From Prevotella sp. (GTDB lineage: Bacteria > Bacteroidota > Bacteroidia > Bacteroidales > Bacteroidaceae), in assembly GCA_017557185.1 (NCBI GenBank), contig JAFZAP010000069.1, positions 1-54,790 on the forward strand: a stretch of DNA of 54,790 nt. Reading direction: 5' to 3'. The notes under the pieces are model-generated. The model was not told where the DNA came from, made no database searches, and saw nothing but the letters and a program-made list of their open reading frames with translations. Position 1 is the stretch's first letter. Each line of letters begins with the position of its first letter. Position numbers and translations under genes: made by a program. Shown piece by piece: positions 22,255 through 54,450 of the stretch.

Positions 22255-22870
22255 CAAAATGTTGTCGCGGCGTGACTGCATTCTAGAAAAAGGATTGGTC
22301 AAAACGGCGACATTATTGGTCGGAATGTCGCCATCGTGTCATGTTTGGCAAGGTGTCTTGAACAGTATAACATGCCTTTGATGCCCCAAATGCCACTTTT
22401 TAGTCCTTTGGAACATCGTTTTCAGGGTGTTGGAACATTCGTTTCGCGAGCGAAAGGCGTTGCTTCCGGGGACGTAGAGCATTGCTTTTGGGGTAGTAAA
22501 GCAATGCTCCAGTTGTTCGGGAGTATAGCTCTGGTTGTTCGGGAGCATTGCTCCAGTTGCTCGGGAGCATAGCTCCAGTGGATCTAGAGATATGCTTTAG
22601 GCAAAATAGGGGTGTTTTTTAGTCAGAGTAAAGGCGGCTAACAGGTTGTAAAAAGGGGTGATTTTGTGTAACAGGTTGATAGTCAATGAGTTGCAGAACA
22701 TTCTGATTGCGGGCGATTTTTCGGCCAAAGTGGGAGCTGGAGGATTCTGCGCGATTCTCAGAGGGCTTTTCTGACCAATTTTCTTGACATTTCCTGCAGG
22801 CGATGGATTATTCTCCAGCGGTATTTCTTAGCCTAATTCATGTTAAAATATGGCTGTGCTGGGGCCACTC
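22255..22870. repeat. Array A: diverged 22-bp phased tandem array
   Basis: Non-coding. Best units start every 22 bp from 22409 to 22585. Units at 22541 and 22563 read GGGAGCATTGCTCCAGTTGC.. and GGGAGCATAGCTCCAGTGGA.., the unit at 22475 has TAGAGCATTGCTTTTGG, that at 22585 TAGAGATATGCTTTAGG and that at 22453 AAAGGCGTTGCTTCCGG. The same phase is still visible at 22695 (AGAACATTCTG), 22739 (GGAGGATTCTG), 22761 and 22805 (GGATTATTCTCCAG). The consensus core is about RRAGCATTGCTTYNG. Many cores are near-palindromic. The first recognisable block, at 22255, contains GTTGTCGCG. The core nine units are certain; the outer units are progressively weaker. Confidence 0.7.
22306..22332. repeat. 9-bp inverted repeat within array A
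   Basis: GGCGACATT (22306-22314) and AATGTCGCC (22324-22332) are separated by 9 bp. The pair falls near the head of array A and could form a hairpin. Confidence 0.5.
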
Positions 22871-34317: not shown

Positions 34318-34322
34318 AACTT

Positions 34323-34362
34323 CTACACTCCTACACTCCTACACTCCTTTACTCCTACACTC
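34323..34362. repeat. Octamer tandem repeat (TACACTCC) between the two MFS genes
   Basis: TACACTCC units repeat about five times (one variant TTTACTCC) immediately upstream of the ATG of MFS paralogue 1 (minus strand reads GGAGTGTA). The tract fills the 45-bp gap that must contain its ribosome-binding region. Confidence 0.75.
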
Positions 34363-35982
34363 CTATTTGATATTCGGTTCTTCCAGACCGATGCCTTTCT
34401 TGCGGTCGACCACCTTCAGGATGAGACCGAGGATCAGGGCAGCCACACCCAGGCAGGCCAGCATCACCAGCGGCCAGGTGTAGTCGAACTGCGTGGGATC
34501 GGTCACATTGGGGTTGGTCTTGTCAAGCACCTTACCGATGAGCAGCGGGAACAGCCACAGGCCGATGTTCTGAATCCAGAAGATCAGCGCATAGGCCGAG
34601 CCGATCACCTTTGCATCGACGAGCTTCGGCACCGAGGGCCACAGCGAGGCAGGCACGAGCGAGAACGACGAGCCCAGTACAAGGATGGTCACATAGGCGA
34701 TGATGATACCGCCAACGGCATTGCCCTTGAAAAGCGGCAGGATGAAGGCGAATGTCAGGTGGCAGGCGATGAGCAGCAGCGAGCCCAGCACGAGCATCGA
34801 CGCAGCCTTTCCCTTGTGGTCGACATACGAGCCCAGAATCGGTGTGATGAGCACTGCCAGCAGCGGGAACACGGCGAAGATCGACTCTGCCGACTGGCGC
34901 ATGTAGCCCATGTAGCAATAGGTGATGAGAGCAATAATCGACACGGCGAGCAAGCCGTATTTCTTGTTCTTATCCTTCATGAAGTTGCTGGCGAAACCTG
35001 CAGCGGCAACGACGAGCATGATGACATACTGCACGATGGTCACCGACGGACTTGCCCAGAACGAATCCTGTGCAGGCTCCGTGAGCGTGAGGTTGCACTG
35101 CAGCATGTTCACGGCATACTTCTGGAACGGGAAGATGGCGCTGTAGTACAGCACGCACAGCAGAGCCACGAGCCAGAAGCCGCTATCGCTGAGAATCTTT
35201 CCGATATCGCTCACCTTGAACGGGTCGTCCTTCTCCTCAGCCTCGCCCGTCTGCGAGTCGAGCTTGCGGTCCATGAAGAAATAGACGATGAACATCATCA
35301 GGGCAATGCACATCAGAACAACACCGAAAGCCACCGAGCGAGTCACGCTGATGTTTCCGCCCAGCTTGGCGAAGAACGGCGAGAAGATCATACATGTGGC
35401 AACACCCAGACGGGCCAGAGCCATCTCCGAGCCCATAGCCAGCGCCATCTCGCGGCCCTTGAACCACTTCACGATACCGCGGCTCACGGTGATACCAGCC
35501 ATCTCGCAGCCGCAGCCGAAGATCATGAATCCGCAGGCGGCAAACTTCGCCGACGCAGGCATGCCCTCATAGAACGGCGACACGCCCAGTTCGTCGAAGA
35601 GTGGAATGTAGTTCAGGTTGTTCGTGAACCACGTTTCCAGACCGCTGCCGATGAACGACTCGCTCACCGCATACCACTTGATGACGGCACCGATCAGCAT
35701 CACAGCACCCGAGAGCACAGCCGTGAAGCGCACGCCCATCTTGTCGAGGATGATACCCGCAAAGATCAGGAAGAACACGAATACGTTGAGGAACACCTCC
35801 GAGCCCTGCATGGTTCCGAAGGCGGTAGAGTCCCACCCGCGCGTTTCCTGCATCAGGTCCTTGATGGGTGAGAGGATGTCCATGAAAATGTACGAACAGA
35901 ACATGGCCAGAGCCAACAGCAACAGGGCAGTCCAACGCATGCCTGCCGAGTCGCGCAATGTTTTTTGAATTGCTTGTGTCAT
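34363..35982 (-). CDS. MFS transporter (paralogue 2)
   Basis: A 539-aa major facilitator with 12 helices, starting MTQAIQKTLRDSAGMRWTAL followed by LLLALAMFCSYIFMDILSP. It carries GIILDKMGVRFTA, the RGIVKWFKGREMALAMGSEM loop and SFSLVPASLWPSVPKLVDAK, matching the paralogue downstream at equivalent points. It has extra loop residues around 130-165 and no repeat insertion. Start at 35982 is preferred over an upstream in-frame start because the latter overlaps the -7 element (36029-36036). It precedes paralogue 1 by 45 bp and likely forms an operon with it. Confidence 0.88.
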   Translation of the reverse strand: MTQAIQKTLRDSAGMRWTALLLLALAMFCSYIFMDILSPIKDLMQETRGWDSTAFGTMQGSEVFLNVFVFFLIFAGIILDKMGVRFTAVLSGAVMLIGAVIKWYAVSESFIGSGLETWFTNNLNYIPLFDELGVSPFYEGMPASAKFAACGFMIFGCGCEMAGITVSRGIVKWFKGREMALAMGSEMALARLGVATCMIFSPFFAKLGGNISVTRSVAFGVVLMCIALMMFIVYFFMDRKLDSQTGEAEEKDDPFKVSDIGKILSDSGFWLVALLCVLYYSAIFPFQKYAVNMLQCNLTLTEPAQDSFWASPSVTIVQYVIMLVVAAAGFASNFMKDKNKKYGLLAVSIIALITYCYMGYMRQSAESIFAVFPLLAVLITPILGSYVDHKGKAASMLVLGSLLLIACHLTFAFILPLFKGNAVGGIIIAYVTILVLGSSFSLVPASLWPSVPKLVDAKVIGSAYALIFWIQNIGLWLFPLLIGKVLDKTNPNVTDPTQFDYTWPLVMLACLGVAALILGLILKVVDRKKGIGLEEPNIK

Positions 35983-36623: not shown

Positions 36624-36696
36624 TTGCGGAGGCAGGACTCGAACATGCGACCTCCAGGTTATGAGCCTGGCGAGCTACCAACTGCTCCACTCCGCG
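36624..36696 (-). tRNA. tRNA-Met (CAU), probably initiator
   Basis: Minus-strand cloverleaf. The acceptor is CGCGGAG with CTCCGCA, where position 1 C faces A72, a mismatch characteristic of initiator tRNA. The D-arm contains AGCAGTTGGTAGCT. The anticodon stem-loop is CCAGG-CTCATAA-CCTGG with anticodon CAT. The T-arm contains GTTCGAGTC. CCA is not encoded. The anticodon stem has A-U rather than G-C at the third pair from the loop, so the elongator alternative is not fully excluded. Confidence 0.93.
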
Positions 36697-38861: not shown

Positions 38862-41327
38862 ATGGAAACAATCCTTTTCAACAAGACGAGAGAGTGGCAG
38901 CGGTGTTTGCTGACAGGCCTTGTCGTGCTGGCTTCGCTGGCCGCTCAGGCACAGACACGCACGGTAGAAAACCTCATCGACGGCTGGCGCTTCCATGCCG
39001 GCGATATCACAGAGGCTGCACAGCCCGCCTACGATGACAGCTCGTGGCGCACCGTCAGCCTGCCCCACGACTTCCAGATAGAACAGCCGTGGGTGGCGCC
39101 TGCCGTTGGCGAGAAAGGCGATAACACCAATGTGGCAGCCAACATCATGAGCCGCCTGTCGAGTCGCGGTTTCAAGGAGATGGGGCAGGGGTGGTACCGC
39201 TATCACCTCATCGCCAACGACAGCCTGAAGGACAAGCACGTGGTGCTCGACTTCGGAGGCATTATGTATGTCGGCGACGTCTATCTCAATGGTGAGCGCG
39301 TGGGCGGCACCGACTATGGCTACGTAGGCTTCGAAGTCGATCTGACGGGCCGGCTGCGCATTGGCGAGGATAACATCATCGCTGTGCGTGCCGACACCCG
39401 CGACCCGTTCAATTCCCGCTGGTATACCGGGGGCGGACTCTTCCGGGGAGTGAAGCTGGTGGTGACCTCTGGCGACCAGTTCTTCAGCCGCCATCCGCTT
39501 TATATACGTACGCGCGAGAACCGCTATGTCGATATCTCGGCAGAGTTCACCAATCGCGGCCGCGACCGCCAGACCAGTCTGCGCGTGCGCATCCTCGATC
39601 CCGACGGCCAGCAGGTGTATGAGGGCACGTCGACCCGTCGCCGCAATACGCAGTCGCGTACGATGGAGGCCTATCTGAACGATATCCTTATTCCCCAGCC
39701 GCAGCTGTGGGACGTCGACACCCCGCGCCTCTATACGGTTCTGGCACAGCTGGTGCGTGAAGATGGAACGGTGGCCGACGAGGTCAGCGAGCACTTCGGC
39801 ATTCGCACCATAGAGATCGGTCCCGATTACGGCTTGAAGCTCAACGGCCGGAAGGTACTGCTGAAGGGCTATGCCAACCACCACTCGCTCGGTGCGCTCG
39901 GTGCTGCCAACTATCCGCGTGCCATCGAGAAGCGCCTGCAGCTCATGAAGCAATTCGGCATGAACCACATCCGCACCAGCCACAACCCCTATAGCCGGGA
40001 GTTCATCGAGCTGTGCGACCAGTATGGCATCCTCGTCGTCGACGAGCTCTACGACAAGTGGAATCGCCTGAACACTGGTGGCCGTGTGCCCTTCGAGCAG
40101 TTGTGGCAATATGATGTTCCCGAGTGGGTGCGCCGCGACCGCAACTCCCCGTCGGTGGTGCTATGGAGTCTCGGCAACGAGCTGCAGCAAGACCCCACTC
40201 AGCCTTTCAACGACTTCGGCGTGACCATGTATAAACTGCAGAAGACGCTCATCCAGCGATACGATTCCACACGCCTGGTCACCGTCGCCATGCATCCCCG
40301 CTACCGCAACTGGGATACGGATTCGCTGCCCTGCGACCTCGCTATGCAAACCGACGTGCAGGCCTACAACTACCGCTATATGTACTTCCCCGGCGACGGT
40401 CGCCGCTTCCCGTGGATGACATTCTACCAGAGCGAGGCCGCCGTGGCTGCTATGGGGCCGAACTACTTCGAGATGGACCTTGATCGCGTCATCGGACTTG
40501 CCTATTGGGGTGCCATCGACTATTTGGGCGAGTCGCAGGGCTGGCCAGCAAAGGGCTGGGCACAGGGCGTCTTCGACATCTCGCTCGAGCCAAAGCCGAA
40601 AGCTTATCTCATGCGTAGCATGTTCAAGCCCGAAGAGCCTATGGTCCATATTGCCGTCATCGACAGTCGCGGCGACCAGATGTGGAACGGTGTGCAGACG
40701 GGTAACGACGGAATGAGCGACCACTGGGACCGCAAGCCCGGCTCGCGCCTGCAGGTCATCACCTATACGAATGCCGACGAGGTGGAACTCATCGTCAACG
40801 GCAAGAGTCTCGGCCGCAAGGCAAACCCTGTGGATGATGCCAAGCGTCGCAACCAGATACGTTGGGAGGATGTGGAATACCAGCCGGGTCGCGCCGTTGC
40901 CGTTGCCTACAACAACGGGCGAGAGGTAGCGCGTCATCAGGTGGAGACACCGGGTGCAGCGGTCAAACTCGTCGCCATTCCCGATCTCGCCCCTGCGAAG
41001 GACAAACGGAAAGCCGCCGACGGCCAGAGCTGGCAGGCTGATGGTCTGGACCTACAGCATGTGCGCGTCTATGCCGTTGATGCCAAGGGCCGTCGTGTCT
41101 ATGGTGCGCAGCAGGAGTTGACGTTCAGCGTGGCGGGCGATGCCAGCATCGTGGCAGTTACGAATGGCGATATCAACAGCAACGAGCTCAACTGCACCGA
41201 TCACCGCCACCTCTGGAACGGTTCGGCGATGGTCATCCTCCGTGCTGGCAAGACGGCAGGGCCCGTCGTCCTCACCACCCGTGCCGAAGGCCTGAAACCC
41301 CTCACGACAAAGCTTGAGACGCGATGA
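38862..41327 (+). CDS. GH2 beta-galactosidase-type glycoside hydrolase
   Basis: An 821-aa exported enzyme with signal peptide (CLLTGLVVLASLAAQAQ). Domain order: jelly-roll sugar-binding domain (LIDGWRFHAGD ... FGGIMYVGDVYLNGERVGG); an Ig-like domain (about 225-315); TIM barrel (NHIRTSHNPYSREFIELCDQ) with acid/base Glu440 in LGNELQQ and nucleophile Glu557 in DYLGESQGW; a DUF4982-like Ig domain after about 600 (DEVELIVNGKSLGRK); and a C-terminal Ig-like domain (VYGAQQELTFSVAGDASIVA). This is the Bacteroidota GH2 layout for beta-galactosidase or related activities. Substrate (beta-galactoside, glucuronide or other) is unresolved. It ends at a clear terminator; no Sus system is adjacent. Confidence 0.9.
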   Translation: METILFNKTREWQRCLLTGLVVLASLAAQAQTRTVENLIDGWRFHAGDITEAAQPAYDDSSWRTVSLPHDFQIEQPWVAPAVGEKGDNTNVAANIMSRLSSRGFKEMGQGWYRYHLIANDSLKDKHVVLDFGGIMYVGDVYLNGERVGGTDYGYVGFEVDLTGRLRIGEDNIIAVRADTRDPFNSRWYTGGGLFRGVKLVVTSGDQFFSRHPLYIRTRENRYVDISAEFTNRGRDRQTSLRVRILDPDGQQVYEGTSTRRRNTQSRTMEAYLNDILIPQPQLWDVDTPRLYTVLAQLVREDGTVADEVSEHFGIRTIEIGPDYGLKLNGRKVLLKGYANHHSLGALGAANYPRAIEKRLQLMKQFGMNHIRTSHNPYSREFIELCDQYGILVVDELYDKWNRLNTGGRVPFEQLWQYDVPEWVRRDRNSPSVVLWSLGNELQQDPTQPFNDFGVTMYKLQKTLIQRYDSTRLVTVAMHPRYRNWDTDSLPCDLAMQTDVQAYNYRYMYFPGDGRRFPWMTFYQSEAAVAAMGPNYFEMDLDRVIGLAYWGAIDYLGESQGWPAKGWAQGVFDISLEPKPKAYLMRSMFKPEEPMVHIAVIDSRGDQMWNGVQTGNDGMSDHWDRKPGSRLQVITYTNADEVELIVNGKSLGRKANPVDDAKRRNQIRWEDVEYQPGRAVAVAYNNGREVARHQVETPGAAVKLVAIPDLAPAKDKRKAADGQSWQADGLDLQHVRVYAVDAKGRRVYGAQQELTFSVAGDASIVAVTNGDINSNELNCTDHRHLWNGSAMVILRAGKTAGPVVLTTRAEGLKPLTTKLETR

Positions 41328-41356
41328 TTGTGCTAAATAATTCAACTATGTTTCAT

Positions 41357-41386
41357 AGCCCAGGGCATTTTCCTTGGGCTTTTTTG
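41357..41386 (+). terminator. Intrinsic terminator after the GH2 gene
   Basis: AGCCCAGGG-CATTTT-CCTTGGGCT forms a 9-bp stem with one wobble, followed by TTTTTTG. Confidence 0.88.
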
Positions 41387-41390
41387 TGTC

Positions 41391-41742
41391 CGATAAGTTG
41401 TCGCGTTGTAAATGCTAAAGCTCTATAAAGTGAGCGAAGCACGGCTTTCGAATGGCTAAAACACGGCATTCGTATATGCGAAACAATGCTTCCGTTTATC
41501 TATCTCAATACTCCCGTTCAGTAAATTAACTTAATTTGATCGGTAAATTAACTTATTTTATTCAGTAAATTAACTTATTTTACTTGGTAAATTAACTTAA
41601 TTTACTCCACAAATTAACTTAATTTACTATACAATTTAAGTTGATTTGCAAAATCATGTCATTGCTTTGGCATCACGGGAGCATGCAAACAGAGAAATAA
41701 GAGCATGCCTTTAGCGATATGAAAGCAACTGTTATTAGCAAA
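41391..41742. repeat. Array B: diverged 22-bp phased tandem array
   Basis: Sixteen 22-bp registers fit exactly between the GH2 terminator and the ECF sigma leader. Five adjacent units (41523 to 41632) share AAATTAACTTA. The flanking units match array A in the same register: 41479 CGAAACAATGCTTCCG, 41655 CATGTCATTGCTTTGG, 41677 GGGAGCATG, 41699 AAGAGCATGCCTTTAG, 41721 GAAAGCAAC. The first register (41391) contains GTTGTCGCG at the same position within the unit as in array A. No reading frame and no spacer-repeat alternation. Confidence 0.75.
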
Positions 41743-41881
41743 CTTATAAATGGTCAACAAAATACTTTTAGACCCAACCTGGTGATTCATTTTCTTTCTT
41801 TTTCACTTAAAAATCCTTAATCCTTGTTCACAAATGGCGGTTATAATTGTTATATAGATGACGAACGTTTAAAAGAACAGC

Positions 41882-42385
41882 ATGACCGACATCGCATTTG
41901 AACTGCAAGCCCGCCAGCTAAGGCAGAAAGCCGTTGAGGCTAGCCGCAGCTATGGGGCGGGATATACAGAAGCCGAAGACATCGCACAAGATGTGATGTT
42001 ACGTCTTTGGCAAATGCGCCATGACCTCGATCGCTATCATTCGCTTGAGGCAGTCACCGTGCAAGCGGCACGTAGGCTCACCCTGAACCTCCACCGTCGT
42101 CAGTCACCGCTTCCCCTTGCTGGTCAAGACTCCTGTAGCTCGGTTTGTGGCGACCCCTCTCAGCAGTTGGAGGAACGCGAGAATGAATTGTGGTTGCAGC
42201 AGCGACTCGATCGGTTGCCCTCAACACAGCATGCCATTCTCTATATGCGGCAGGTGGAACATCGTTCGAGTACAGAAATCTCCCGCCTGCTCGACATCAG
42301 CGAAGCATCGGTGCGCACGCTGCTCTCACGAGCTCGTCGAAGTCTATTGGAAGAAATCAAGAAAAGAAATCAGTCATTACGATAA
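41882..42385 (+). CDS. ECF-subfamily RNA polymerase sigma factor
   Basis: A 167-aa sigma-70-family protein. Region 2 shows YTEAEDIAQDVMLRLWQMRH (about 27-46) and continues through VQAARRLTLNLHRRQ. Region 4 shows RLDRLPSTQHAILYMRQVEH followed by the helix-turn-helix SSTEISRLLDISEASVRTLL. No region 1.1 or 3. It heads a three-gene run with a single-pass membrane protein and an exported protein, the usual sigma/anti-sigma/effector arrangement. The 135-bp leader (41743-41881) shows no consensus promoter; a TTATAATTG / GACGAACGTT segment could be an autoregulated ECF promoter. Array B lies directly upstream. Confidence 0.88.
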   Translation: MTDIAFELQARQLRQKAVEASRSYGAGYTEAEDIAQDVMLRLWQMRHDLDRYHSLEAVTVQAARRLTLNLHRRQSPLPLAGQDSCSSVCGDPSQQLEERENELWLQQRLDRLPSTQHAILYMRQVEHRSSTEISRLLDISEASVRTLLSRARRSLLEEIKKRNQSLR

Positions 42386-42398
42386 ACACCCTACGCCT

Positions 42399-43139
42399 AT
42401 GAAAGGAATTGATAATCAGAGGCATATCGCGGCTTTGCTCGACCGCTTCTTGCAAGGTACGACCACCGTTGAGGAAGAGAAAAACCTTGCCGACTACCTG
42501 CGTACCGCTACCGATCTACCTGAAGAATGGGAGGCGTATCGCACCATGTTCCAGTACTTTGAACAGGGAATGGAAGAGTTGCCGTCGGCTCAGCCAGTTG
42601 TAGCGGCAGAGTTTCTTTTTGCGGCACCTGTAGAAAGTCGGAGCCAGTCGCACTGGTGGCTGGCAGCCGCCGCCTCCTTGCTGATTCTGGTTGGTGCAAC
42701 GGTAACATTCCATTTCTTCAGACAGGATGAAACTCCCAACATAGAAACCGCGTTTGTTCCCCGTCAGCCAGTGAAACAAGCCAATCAACCAAAACAACCT
42801 AACCCCTCGGCTTATGGTAAGGATGTGATTCATTCACCTACCGCAAGGCTCAACACGAGTAGCGAACGTAGAACGCGCTCAGCTCCGTTGCTCTCTGAGC
42901 GTCAGCAGGAAAAGCCCCTCGTTCCTACAAACCACAATCAGGAGGTCTCTGATGAAGATGATCCTGTAGAGAACTCTTCCTACGAAGACTTGCGCGAGGC
43001 TCAGCAGATCGCCATTCACAACGATGTTGTTGAGGCTGTCTACGAATTGCTCCCTAACGACTACAACCTACTGCAACTCGCCACCGACGAGAACGGCGTC
43101 TATGTGATCATTCCCACGACCATCGTTCGCGAACTATAG
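42399..43139 (+). CDS. Single-pass membrane protein, probable anti-sigma factor
   Basis: A 246-aa protein. The cytoplasmic helical N-terminus (1-85) begins IDNQRHIAALLDRFLQGTTT and EEEKNLADYLRTA, typical of Bacteroidota anti-sigma N-domains. One transmembrane helix lies at about 86-107 (WWLAAAASLLILVGATVTFH). A Pro/Gln/Arg-rich periplasmic linker and a short folded C-terminus (EAVYELLPNDYNLLQLATDE) follow. ATG at 42399, 13 bp after the sigma stop; longer in-frame starts overlap the sigma gene. No FecR or zinc-finger signature is present, so the anti-sigma role rests on order and topology. Confidence 0.65.
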   Translation: MKGIDNQRHIAALLDRFLQGTTTVEEEKNLADYLRTATDLPEEWEAYRTMFQYFEQGMEELPSAQPVVAAEFLFAAPVESRSQSHWWLAAAASLLILVGATVTFHFFRQDETPNIETAFVPRQPVKQANQPKQPNPSAYGKDVIHSPTARLNTSSERRTRSAPLLSERQQEKPLVPTNHNQEVSDEDDPVENSSYEDLREAQQIAIHNDVVEAVYELLPNDYNLLQLATDENGVYVIIPTTIVREL

Positions 43140-43187
43140 TCTATCCATTTCACGCCAAACATATAACCAACAAATAAAAACAACACA

Positions 43188-44192
43188 ATGAAAACAATGA
43201 ACATCCATCAGCATTCTTGTTGCAGGCTGGCTGTCATCAGCATCCTGCTTGCGCTGGCCCCCAGTACTTTTGCACAGAAGAACATCGAGGCCGCCTTCAA
43301 CAGTTTCAAGAAAGACAAGGCCGTCAGTGCCACCGAGAGCCGCAGCCGCGAAAACGATCCCGCCACCGGAAAGCTCATCCAGCGTACCGAGCAAGTTGAC
43401 TTTAGACTTGCCGTAAAGAAGCAAAACCTTATCGACAATCTCCGTGCCGCCTTCGACGCCGACCGCGACGCCTCCTATGATGAGTTCACTCACACCGGTA
43501 ACGGCCACAGCCAGCGTCCGATTCTGTTAGGGAAGGAAATCTCCGTAGGCGTTGCTCCCAATCGCAACTATATCGTTATGGCCTTCGCTGACAAACAGAA
43601 CTCTGCCGACGCCCCCGAGAACCGAACCGCTTATGCCTTGGAGTGGGGGAGGCCCGATAATAGCGATTCCATCAGCGGCTCCCTCTACATCGTCTATGGC
43701 CCCATTCCGCAGAAGAATAGCATTTCCGTCATCCGCACGATTAAAGGAACGACGCCCGAGGCTATCAGCCGTTACCGTGAGAAAATGCGCGACTTTGACT
43801 GGTCAGGATTGAAGTCTTCGCTCGATATCGACTTGTCAGAGATTGGGCAGTCGCTGGGCGATGTGGGCTCGGCACTCGCCGACCTCCGTCTTGGCGAATT
43901 CGGAATCCTTGCCGACAGCCTCGCAGCGTCTTCCGGCCAAGCTACGTTGCAGCCTTGGCTCTACTTCTTCCGCATGCAGACACGCGGCTATCGCAAGGCA
44001 GCCAAGCAAGGTAAGGATGTCACCTACAATCTGACCAGTCTGCTCGAACACTGCAAGAAGGAGAACGGAGTTCTCACCGCCGACGAACGCCGCCTTTGTA
44101 TCGACGAGCTGCGCCGACTACTCGACATCACGAAAGACGACTTCGACCGTGCGTTGCTCGATCAATGTGTCAAGCAGTTGGAGAAGTACTGA
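43188..44192 (+). CDS. Exported protein of unknown function (sigma operon)
   Basis: A 334-aa protein with signal peptide (LAVISILLALAPSTFAQ). The mature region begins KNIEAAFNSFKKDKAVSATE, contains a repeated-looking polar segment (ESRSRENDPATGK) and a beta-rich middle (GKEISVGVAPNRNYIVMAFA). It ends in helical segments (LLEHCKKENGVLTADERRLC). I do not recognise the family. It is 48 bp after the membrane partner gene and is the last gene before a terminator, so it is probably a target or modulator of this sigma system in the periplasm. Confidence 0.7.
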   Translation: MKTMNIHQHSCCRLAVISILLALAPSTFAQKNIEAAFNSFKKDKAVSATESRSRENDPATGKLIQRTEQVDFRLAVKKQNLIDNLRAAFDADRDASYDEFTHTGNGHSQRPILLGKEISVGVAPNRNYIVMAFADKQNSADAPENRTAYALEWGRPDNSDSISGSLYIVYGPIPQKNSISVIRTIKGTTPEAISRYREKMRDFDWSGLKSSLDIDLSEIGQSLGDVGSALADLRLGEFGILADSLAASSGQATLQPWLYFFRMQTRGYRKAAKQGKDVTYNLTSLLEHCKKENGVLTADERRLCIDELRRLLDITKDDFDRALLDQCVKQLEKY

Positions 44193-52550: not shown

Positions 52551-53069
52551 ATGGATTTAGGAAAACTGTTATTAAAGAAGATCGTGGATGTCGCCAAGGA
52601 CTATCTCGATAGCTCAACGAAAGACTTGGAACCCAGACGACAGAGTCGCCCCGAACAGCGCCCTGAGCCTAAGCAAGAGCCCGAGGCGATTGAAAGGACC
52701 GATGCCGAATGGAAGACCTATTTCAGGGAGATCCTCCAGCGGGAATTCTCGTCGTACACCCTTCGCGAGAACGTCAAGGTGACCGACCTGGCAGGTTACG
52801 TCAGCGATGAGTTCAAACTCTACAAGAAACGCCCGAACCAAGTCTATAAAGCCGAGTGGGGACAGCCCTACACGTTTGTGCTTGAGAGCGCCGGCGCGCC
52901 GAAAGCAGTCGTCATGCTTGGCGACGGCCACAGCCACGACAGCAATGTGAAGTACCTTATCGCTAGGATGTATGCCAAGAAGCTGGGCATGCCCTACATC
53001 AACTTCTATACGCAGATGCCCAACGAAAGGAGCTATGTCGTCGAGCGTGTACGCAAGTTCCTGGACTGA
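52551..53069 (+). CDS. Uncharacterised soluble protein upstream of the RT cassette
   Basis: A 172-aa cytoplasmic protein. An N-terminal helix (MDLGKLLLKKIVDVAKDYLD) precedes a low-complexity Arg/Glu/Pro/Gln linker (about 27-50, RRQSRPEQRPEPKQEPEAIE). The C-terminal alpha/beta domain runs about 55-172 with TDAEWKTYFREILQREFSSY, then YKAEWGQPYTFVLES, GAPKAVVMLGDGHSHDSNVK and KLGMPYINFYTQMPNERSYV. The E-x(n)-VVMLGDG... pattern recalls small nuclease-like or nucleotide-binding folds, but no catalytic motif is certain and I do not recognise the family. It is 48 bp after the Omp85 gene and 175 bp before the reverse transcriptase, so it may belong to either unit. Confidence 0.65.
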   Translation: MDLGKLLLKKIVDVAKDYLDSSTKDLEPRRQSRPEQRPEPKQEPEAIERTDAEWKTYFREILQREFSSYTLRENVKVTDLAGYVSDEFKLYKKRPNQVYKAEWGQPYTFVLESAGAPKAVVMLGDGHSHDSNVKYLIARMYAKKLGMPYINFYTQMPNERSYVVERVRKFLD

Positions 53070-53101
53070 GGCAGTTAGCCTGAATTATTCAAGTTTGAAC
53101 T

Positions 53102-53237
53102 AAGAAAAAGGGGATGCAGCATGAGCTGCGCCTGTAGAGGAGGCAGCCTTCCCACCACTACGTTTTGCAGGCAACAGGGCAAGGTATCCTCTCGTGATCA
53201 GCAATTTTGCTGATTCAAAATCATTCCCCTTTTTCTT
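53102..53237 (+). ncRNA. Candidate RT-associated RNA bounded by an inverted repeat
   Basis: AAGAAAAAGGGGATG (53102-53116) is the reverse complement, with one bulged base, of CATTCCCCTTTTTCTT (53222-53237). Between the arms are a GCAGC-ATGA-GCTGC hairpin (53117-53130), AGAGGA (from 53136) with TCCTCT, CCTGT/ACAGG as an alternative, and ATCAGCA-ATTT-TGCTGAT (53197-53214). The right arm ends 7 bp before the RT ATG. Retron RNAs (msr-msd) have this placement and this kind of terminal inverted repeat (a1/a2), with a size of roughly 100-200 nt. Expression and reverse transcription are not shown. Confidence 0.5.
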
Positions 53238-53244
53238 TTCTCAT

Positions 53245-54450
53245 ATGGAAAGTATCCTCACGCAACTTACCCGGCAGGAGACGTGGGAAGAGTTTCTTGC
53301 CTACCGGCTGTTGAAAGGCCGCTTCAACTGGCATGAGTTCGACGAAGCCGACAGCTATGTCGATCGTGAAGACTACCTCCCCCTGGCACAGAAGATAGCC
53401 CAAGGGGGGCGGTTGGGCATTCCCGTGAAGAAGATCATCAACAAGATGGGAACGGGCAAGAAACGAGTGGTTTACAGCTTCGCGCCTGACGAGATGATGC
53501 TCCTTAAACTCATCGCCTTCAAGCTCTACGACTACGACCATTGCTTCGCACCTAACTGCTACGCGTTCCGGCGGGGCATGCGAGCCTGCGACGCCATCTT
53601 CCACATCCAGCGAGCCGTAGCAGGGCGCAGCATATGGGCCTACAAGCTCGACATCCACGACTATTTCAATTCCATTTCCATCGATCTCCTCCTGCCCATG
53701 CTCGCCGAGATGATGGCCGATGACCAGCCGTTGTACCGTTTCTTCCAGAACATGCTCACCGACAACCGAGCCGTTTACAACGGTGACACCATCCTCGAAC
53801 AGCACGGCGTGATGGCAGGCACACCCACCTCGCCCTTTCTCGCCGATGTCTATCTGAAGGAAGTCGACCGCTATTTCCATGAAGCCAACATCGTCTACGC
53901 CCGCTATTCCGACGACATCATCCTCTTCGCACCCGACCTCGCCACCCTTGATGCCCACAAGAGCCGTATGGCAGCATTCCTCCGTCAGTACCGGCTTCAG
54001 GTAAACCCCGACAAGGAGAAAACCTACACGCCCGATGAGGCCTACGAGTTCCTCGGCTTCAAGTGTCACGCCGGCGATATCGACATTTCAGAAGCCACCA
54101 AAAAGAAGATGAAGGGTAAAATCCGACGCACTGCCAAGTCACTCCAGCGCTGGAGCTCAAAGAACCACATCGAGCCCGAGAAAGCCATGAAAGCACTCAT
54201 CAACCGCTTCAACTGCGTCTTCTTCGAGAACGACGACACCGACGCCCTCACTTGGTCACGATGGTTCTTCCCCGTCATTACCCGTACCGACGGCCTCAGG
54301 GACATCGACCACTACCTCCAGCAGAACATCCGCTTCCTCAGCACGGGAAAACACAACAAGGCCAACTTCAGAACCGATTACGCCCACCTCAAACGCCTGG
54401 GCTACAAAAGTCTGGTGAACGAATACTTCAACTTCAAGGAAGCCAAATAA
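53245..54450 (+). CDS. Stand-alone reverse transcriptase (retron-like or group II-like lineage)
   Basis: A 401-aa RNA-directed DNA polymerase. RT motifs in order: FAPNCYAFRRG (about 101), catalytic Asp136 in YKLDIHDYFNSI, QHGVMAGTPTSPFLADVYL (about 186-204), active-site ARYSDDIILFA (Asp223 and Asp224; YSDD instead of YADD), and EKTYTPDEAYEFLGFKC (about 258-274). A thumb and helical C-terminus follow, ending GKHNKANFRTDYAHLKRLGY and KSLVNEYFNFKEAK. No maturase, HNH, integrase or protease domain. The retron hallmark VTG is not seen where expected, and no NAxxH was found. ATG at 53245 is preferred to GTG 53194, which lies in the RNA hairpin. No toxin or effector gene is visible within the window. 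Confidence 0.9.
   Translation: MESILTQLTRQETWEEFLAYRLLKGRFNWHEFDEADSYVDREDYLPLAQKIAQGGRLGIPVKKIINKMGTGKKRVVYSFAPDEMMLLKLIAFKLYDYDHCFAPNCYAFRRGMRACDAIFHIQRAVAGRSIWAYKLDIHDYFNSISIDLLLPMLAEMMADDQPLYRFFQNMLTDNRAVYNGDTILEQHGVMAGTPTSPFLADVYLKEVDRYFHEANIVYARYSDDIILFAPDLATLDAHKSRMAAFLRQYRLQVNPDKEKTYTPDEAYEFLGFKCHAGDIDISEATKKKMKGKIRRTAKSLQRWSSKNHIEPEKAMKALINRFNCVFFENDDTDALTWSRWFFPVITRTDGLRDIDHYLQQNIRFLSTGKHNKANFRTDYAHLKRLGYKSLVNEYFNFKEAK

Follow-up and report, generated by a model that had tools for sequence, protein, structure and literature searches.

The closest known counterparts that we found of the arrays described here are minisatellites of Porphyromonas. In the accessible part of its description, the P. 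gingivalis BrickBuilt element is a 23-nt minisatellite within a MITE, present in 19 copies with a conserved leader and tail, 12-nt terminal inverted repeats and some target duplications (Klein and others 2015, PMC4596501). The same text reports 22-, 23- and 41-nt repeats in strain W83 and 464/PgRS elements with 41-nt repeats. As far as that account extends, our arrays resemble BrickBuilt as dispersed intergenic tandem repeats of near-equal period, their 22-bp unit falling within the 22–23 nt of elements of this type, in the same bacterial order, with copy-number change between strains, predicted stem-loops and sites partly conserved between strains (PMC4596501). They differ from it in occupying more places, in having species-specific dyads, in combining two palindrome types in one frame and in regular spacing where this was measured. 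The B family defined below also lacks conserved flanks: among 34–37 aligned copies neither a leader nor a tail was present, and no conserved block that could be a ~12-nt terminal inverted repeat lay at either edge of the element. The 464/PgRS elements, in the part of their description that is accessible (PMC4596501), are likened by period and palindromes, not by sequence, to arrays of a 41-bp period in genome G016 and of 41–42 bp in G092, which have several palindromic cores per frame and are not the class of the window arrays. REP/BIME elements with RAYT, in the accessible portion of their account, share extragenic palindromes in high copy with the arrays, and differ in period, in the many-unit structure of our arrays and in the lack of an adjacent Y1 gene at the loci that we examined (PMC3733652). 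No GTAG or CGTC tag beside the palindrome was seen on reading the B consensus and units. CRISPR loci have unique spacers between repeats, whereas the 22-bp units that were read have none. In the open literature, outside which most subscription papers lie, we found no description of such arrays in Prevotella.

The window, that is, the whole 54,790-nt stretch of DNA that was analysed, contains two such arrays, A and B. The extent of array B was taken from where the consensus of its 34–37 genomic copies exceeds background. The features are as follows.

22261–22269, plus strand: GTTGTCGCG, proposed head of array A; present, not a family feature
22457–22622, no strand assigned: array A, ~7 units of 22 bp with the core RGAGCWWWGCTYY
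41357–41385, plus strand: hairpin with a T run resembling an intrinsic terminator, located between GH2 and array B, read from the sequence
41397–41405, plus strand: GTTGTCGCG, proposed head of array B; present, outside the conserved element
41429–41736, no strand assigned: array B, composite in one 22-bp frame of ~4 A-like, 6 AT-rich and 4 A-like units
41429–41516, no strand assigned: left A-like units of array B, with dyads that, as a class, keep the register of the core
41517–41648, no strand assigned: core of array B, made up of six units of 22 bp built around GTAAATTAACTTAATTTAC; predicted to be intrinsically curved
41649–41736, no strand assigned: right A-like units of array B, including GGGAGCAT at 41677; class dyads in register with the core
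53194–54450, plus strand: reverse transcriptase of the UG26 group (RVT_1; PADLOC RT_UG26 at 1e-159)

The RGAGCWWWGCTYY core of array A is a 13-bp dyad of 5-3-5 layout (RGAGC-NNN-GCTYY in A-type units), accompanied by a variable spacer of ~9 bp, and GTAAATTAACTTAATTTAC in the core of array B is a 19-bp dyad. Tandem Repeats Finder returned a period of 22 for array A and periods of 22 and 44 for array B, and self-matching at lag 22 was strong in both. By profile scans, array A lies in a divergent intergenic region flanked by the genes of an AMP-binding enzyme and a two-component-propeller protein; array B is flanked by a GH2 gene and an ECF sigma factor gene. Scans with Pfam, NCBIfam and PADLOC assigned ordinary functions to the genes of the window, except for the reverse transcriptase. 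The window also contains a tRNA gene (36624–36696, minus strand) and, by Tandem Repeats Finder, short tandem repeats of 7 and 8 bp at 2232–2272 and 34319–34365; 7-bp repeats of the CATTGAC type occur in stretches of genome G006 as well.

The proposal of the first-pass annotation that arrays A and B belong to one dispersed family, with a common 22-bp frame and register, was borne out across the genome. Merging the search lists of both arrays with pattern hits and a lag-22 scan gave 83 array places in 3.35 Mb; the lists are incomplete, and a few places are weak (C73 and C74 have no lag-22 run, and some others rest on a single pattern pair). Array B as a query yielded at least 75 matches at ~39 places when the best 40 of 48 first-look candidates were scored, and array A at least 30 matches at ~26 places from the best 40 of 80, with places counted by hand in both cases. 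The period is not a product of chance, because in a 454.6-kb sample runs at lag 22 (19) outnumbered those at every other lag: its harmonic 44 gave 13, lag 21 gave 5 and the remaining lags between 8 and 60 at most 3. The two-unit pattern AGCN3GCT-N13-AGCN3GCT matched 206 times per strand, and its reversed control not once. The family is intergenic, as a predicted ORF overlaps one array among 68; 54 of the 68 could be classified by their neighbouring genes, which were tandem in 29, convergent in 16 and divergent in 9, according to home-made gene calls, from which at least one gene of the window, that of the ECF sigma factor, is missing. A number of B arrays are at or close to the ends of contigs (C18, C51, C33, C38, C16 and C69), and arrays at such places may explain some of the assembly breaks of this genome. 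Strict patterns matched only 4 and 6 stretches of viral contigs and array B had no match in the plasmid collection, so that carriage by phages or plasmids was rejected.

Common to the arrays is one dyad every 22 bp, and different palindromes, AGCNNNGCT and AAATTAA[C/G]TTAATTT, share one phase even within a single array. Array B is one of ~37 genomic copies of the composite of ~4 A-like, 6 AT-rich and 4 A-like units. The consensus of the 37 copies rises ~88 bp before the core and returns to background ~88 bp after it, no consensus being left beyond about −110 and +242 relative to the core start, and mean top-base frequency across the six core units is 0.79–0.92. In the A-like flanks of the B cores (36 arrays), dyads were counted 18 and 16 times at offset 0 and 0–9 times at other offsets. 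The single consensus that had been drawn for both arrays holds for array A and for the two flanks of array B, whose middle consists of a different palindrome set in the shared frame.

Dyad symmetry exceeded column-permuted controls (mean score, of 5) in the A arrays of this genome (3.54 versus 2.81), in its B arrays (3.64 versus 3.04) and in arrays of G348 (3.53 versus 2.66), the closest of 398 same-genus genomes (93% over a ribosomal operon stretch of ~1.2 kb). Individually, 22 of 31 A arrays, 28 of 37 B arrays and 11 of 13 G348 arrays exceeded the 95th percentile of their own controls. In the distant congener G016, four of seven 22-bp arrays and all seven arrays of the 41-bp class passed this control, and the average was above it. 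The second class, with a period of 41–42 bp and several palindromes per frame, occurs in G016 and G092 (for example, L108:2746–3455, among others, in G016 and L116:12330–12845 in G092), and one array of this class has three different palindromes in one frame. Because different palindromes occupy one frame in several species, the conserved rule seems to be geometry rather than sequence. Compensatory changes within arrays matched shuffled expectation in the A arrays (30 observed versus 30.2) and showed no excess in G016 (4 versus 2.8); they exceeded it in the B arrays (199 versus 114), G348 (75 versus 43) and G006 (38 versus 17). We claim no base-pair covariation, since this excess stems at least partly from palindromes mixed in one frame.

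The shared head motif fared differently. The first-pass annotation had noted that GGGAGCAT begins exactly 280 bp after GTTGTCGCG at both arrays; this is correct (22261 to 22541 and 41397 to 41677), as is the register, each head lying, by arithmetic, 1 base (mod 22) ahead of the dyad phase of its own array. The expectation that GTTGTCGCG would precede 22-bp periodicity elsewhere failed: the motif lay within 400 bp of just 3 of 68 arrays, namely the two of the window and an inverted copy beyond the right end of another. It occurs six times in the window, against 0.73 expected, the other four copies being within ORFs, and nine times in the 454.6-kb sample, seven of them inside predicted genes. 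In 34 aligned B paralogs the corresponding columns had no consensus (mean top-base frequency 0.38, background 0.34–0.36). This low proximity and the lack of a paralog consensus rule GTTGTCGCG out as a shared start of arrays, and its position beside arrays A and B is a coincidence. Of the suggested dispersed element with a defined start, the dispersed family therefore stands, and the start does not, GTTGTCGCG being unconserved among the paralogs of array B.

The spacing of the arrays was measured on contigs C42 and C109, part of C7 and the window in this genome, and on all of contig C22 of G348. These contiguous stretches contain 19 and 13 arrays, respectively, and the 27 array-to-array intervals average 25.4 kb (range 12.3–75.9 kb). 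None of the 27 was shorter than 12 kb, against 10.5 expected under uniform placement, and none of 100,000 uniform draws reached the observed minimum. The contigs of this genome alone gave an interval CV of 0.29 (P 1e-5), and none of 20,000 draws of random intergenic gaps on them was as extreme as the data in minimum or CV. In G348 taken by itself, the minimum had a P of 0.001 and the CV, with one gap of 75.9 kb, was not significant (P = 0.08). Across 36 intervals from the incomplete whole-genome lists, the minimum was 11.2 kb. In 400 kb of G016, 22- and 41-bp arrays taken together were not regularly spaced, ten intervals ranging, by reading, from ~6 to 119 kb. As far as tested, regular spacing belongs to this species and G348 as a pair.

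Spacing without close pairs hints at a role in organizing the chromosome. The reading that we prefer, tentatively and at somewhat under even odds, is that of DNA-level arrays of dyad sites for a putative dimer-forming protein with a chromosome-scale role. Each 22-bp unit carries one mirror-symmetric site of 13–19 bp, and a step of 22 bp, close to two turns of the helix, keeps neighbouring sites facing nearly the same way. Most likely, one dimeric DNA-binding protein, or a small group of related proteins, would bind these sites cooperatively and form a nucleoprotein filament or a bend in intergenic DNA; because at least two unrelated palindromes share one frame, one sequence-specific protein cannot explain all arrays. 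In the species pair their chromosome-scale work may be to mark domain boundaries, to anchor DNA or to manage supercoils; such work would account for the ~25-kb separation and mutual avoidance of the arrays. Protein binding, cooperativity and the chromosome-scale role are what we infer from these patterns. A stricter form, in which a putative dimeric protein reads about one array per 25 kb as a chromosome-wide ruler that sets domains of similar size, appears unlikely; here the target sequence of the protein would differ from one species to another on a constant 22-bp geometry. Plasmid iterons, parC and parS are helically phased repeated sites for a DNA-binding protein. The arrays resemble them as phased dyad sites at whole helical turns (with 22 bp taken as ~two turns), an analogy for their possible working only, and differ from them in occupying dozens of chromosomal places with no dedicated adjacent gene recognized.

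A palindromic array could also act as RNA. Folding z scores were −5.4 for A arrays (n = 31) and −9.4 for B cores (n = 35), against −0.65 for control intergenic sequences (n = 60; 20 shuffles each). Such folding agrees with elements of transcription ends, that is, RNA hairpins, terminators or mRNA stabilizers at operon ends, which we regard as improbable, and good folds are expected anyway, since any array of palindromes must fold. The outer bases of the units are asymmetric (GG..TT-like or AA..CC-like), so selection on RNA would reveal a strand. By hand count, 12 arrays lying between codirectional genes had 23 units oriented with transcription and 25 against it, and this lack of bias speaks against an RNA role. 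Of 64 cases, 18 had a terminator-like hairpin separating the gene end from the array, compared with 5 of 70 array-free gaps (over unequal search lengths), and the 16 classified arrays between convergent genes also suit transcription ends; the 9 between divergent genes, array A among them, do not. No Rfam family reached its gathering score over either array (window 21900–42200), and transcription-end elements would leave the even spacing unexplained. RNA-level structure was accordingly set aside as the selected feature, the folds being stable and the orientation indifferent to transcription, and is kept as a rival.

At the DNA level, the B core had a curvature index of 1.41, against 1.09 for shuffled sequences and 1.08 for intergenic controls (95th percentile 1.23); the 95th percentile of AT-rich intergenic controls, 1.53, is above that of the B core. 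These values come from a Bolshoy-type wedge model. We infer that the arrays act at the DNA level.

Comparison with relatives brings out the strongest rival. The AT-rich B pattern matched 305 times in this genome (G000) and 334 times in G348 and was rare elsewhere: 47 of 398 genomes had any match, and the next highest count, 40 in G006, faced 69 in the reversed control there. The reversed control is not neutral for the AT-rich motif, with many control matches in several genomes (G409, G006, G248 and G051, for example) that probably stem from other AT-rich arrays of 22-bp period. The strict two-unit A pattern occurred in 10 of 120 same-genus genomes, and among the matches listed for a four-unit pattern the A type was present in named Prevotella, Hoylesella and Bacteroides records; some of the listed matches from outside Bacteroidales that were read look like unrelated repeats. 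Of 38 B arrays in G348, 15 are at sites that also border an array in this genome (10 by both flanks, 5 by one), which gives no support to recent mobility as far as these shared sites are concerned. The family is dispersed and old enough to be partly common to two species. For the remaining 23, no array site matched among the stretches compared, which include the flanks of B places from the array B query and cover part of this genome. These 23 sites, the arrays that fail the dyad control, the irregular spacing in G016 and the 75.9-kb gap and non-significant CV of G348 count against the DNA-binding reading.

Array turnover between this species and G348 is real. At L229 of G348, one of these 23, both array flanks are adjacent in this genome, with ~14 bases between them, and these joined flanks mean that array gain or loss occurs. 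In 200 kb of syntenic C42, three of eight arrays of this genome are shared with G348 (two by one flank) and three are absent from sites aligned on both sides; two to three of the eight (24.9, 47.9 and 164.7 kb) border segments that are unaligned or rearranged between the two genomes. At three arrays aligned on both sides to array-free G348 sites, the junctions were too diverged for a clear view, and no target duplication was seen. Around array B itself, the ECF sigma gene of G348 lies ~18 kb from GH2 and has its own B array upstream (L226, L264); behind GH2 stands an array with units of a third type. Here one array lies between both genes (41327–44192), which looks as though segments had been swapped at arrays. 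The gene to the left of array A was compared in six species (protein 78–80% identical), and those of its neighbourhoods that were viewed differed, so that it was of no use for finding empty sites.

These observations bear on a selfish or neutral minisatellite with no host function, in which slippage and unequal exchange change array size, and gene conversion or rare transposition, a route proposed for BrickBuilt MITEs, carries arrays from one intergenic site to another. Recombination between neighbouring arrays would delete the intervening DNA, thereby removing close pairs, and dyads would persist as palindromic units are corrected or copied as hairpins. The partial sharing of sites with G348 (15 of 38, and three of eight on C42), the C42 arrays that border unaligned or rearranged segments and the amplification, by one pattern, of the AT-rich type in G000 and G348 all agree with such an origin, as do, in the accessible text on P. 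gingivalis, its 22-, 23- and 41-nt tandem repeats, some of them in MITE-like elements. B cores of 15 orthologous pairs were 85.5% identical, those of paralogs 84.4% and of non-orthologs 83.4%, and the true ortholog was the best match in 2 of 15. The B cores thus appear, from their sequences, to be held near a common consensus by selection or conversion, and orthologs barely closer than paralogs, as expected from conversion, also fit gene conversion without function. Against the minisatellite stand the B family, in which no leader, tail or terminal inverted repeat is shared, the few sites compared, at which no target duplication was seen, and the spacing: random loss should spare close pairs that flank essential genes, and yet the smallest of 36 intervals is 11.2 kb. 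On balance, we favour DNA-binding arrays with a chromosome-scale role over the selfish minisatellite, itself a serious possibility that is nearly as likely.

Two enzymatic origins were also weighed. Movement by a Y1 (RAYT) transposase, as for REP/BIME elements that serve, for example, as gyrase sites, is very unlikely. The arrays are extragenic palindromes, partly at gene ends, and Y1 transposase matches were found in all six genomes tested, yet also in 5 of 14 control genomes. An array-like run was present at 2 of 10 Y1 loci within 1.5-kb flanks (one at the far edge, one weak), none of them directly adjoining; unlike REPs, the arrays have a tandem 22-bp period and no GTAG-type tag. With no array directly beside the gene at 10 loci (of 12 matches), the transposase link was dropped. 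One Y1 match, G000:C7:68887–69132, lies ~1.3 kb from a B array.

Copying of the arrays from an RNA template by the reverse transcriptase of the window, a form of the link between enzyme and arrays that the first-pass annotation had floated, has next to no probability in our view. Its one attraction is proximity, 11.5 kb to the nearer array. The reverse transcriptase occurs in 13 of 120 same-genus genomes (E 1e-30) and overlaps with the A pattern (10 of 120) in two, this genome and G063, against ~1.1 expected by chance. Arrays occur in G006, G016 and G092, none of which belongs to the 13 genomes with the enzyme. The link was rejected on this overlap and on the assignment of the enzyme to the UG26 group. 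The gene adjoins, within window 52551–54450, a 172-aa ORF with a weak match to the RT-associated COG2852 model (2e-6), and a partial second copy lies at G000:C103:2–751.

Evenly spaced non-coding arrays under a geometric, not a sequence, rule are unusual in bacteria. If they are read by a protein, they would offer a handle on chromosome organization in Bacteroidales; if they are selfish, they would show a mechanism that keeps copies apart. They may also link the Porphyromonas minisatellites of 22, 23 and 41 nt, as these appear in the accessible part of their description, to a wider phenomenon.
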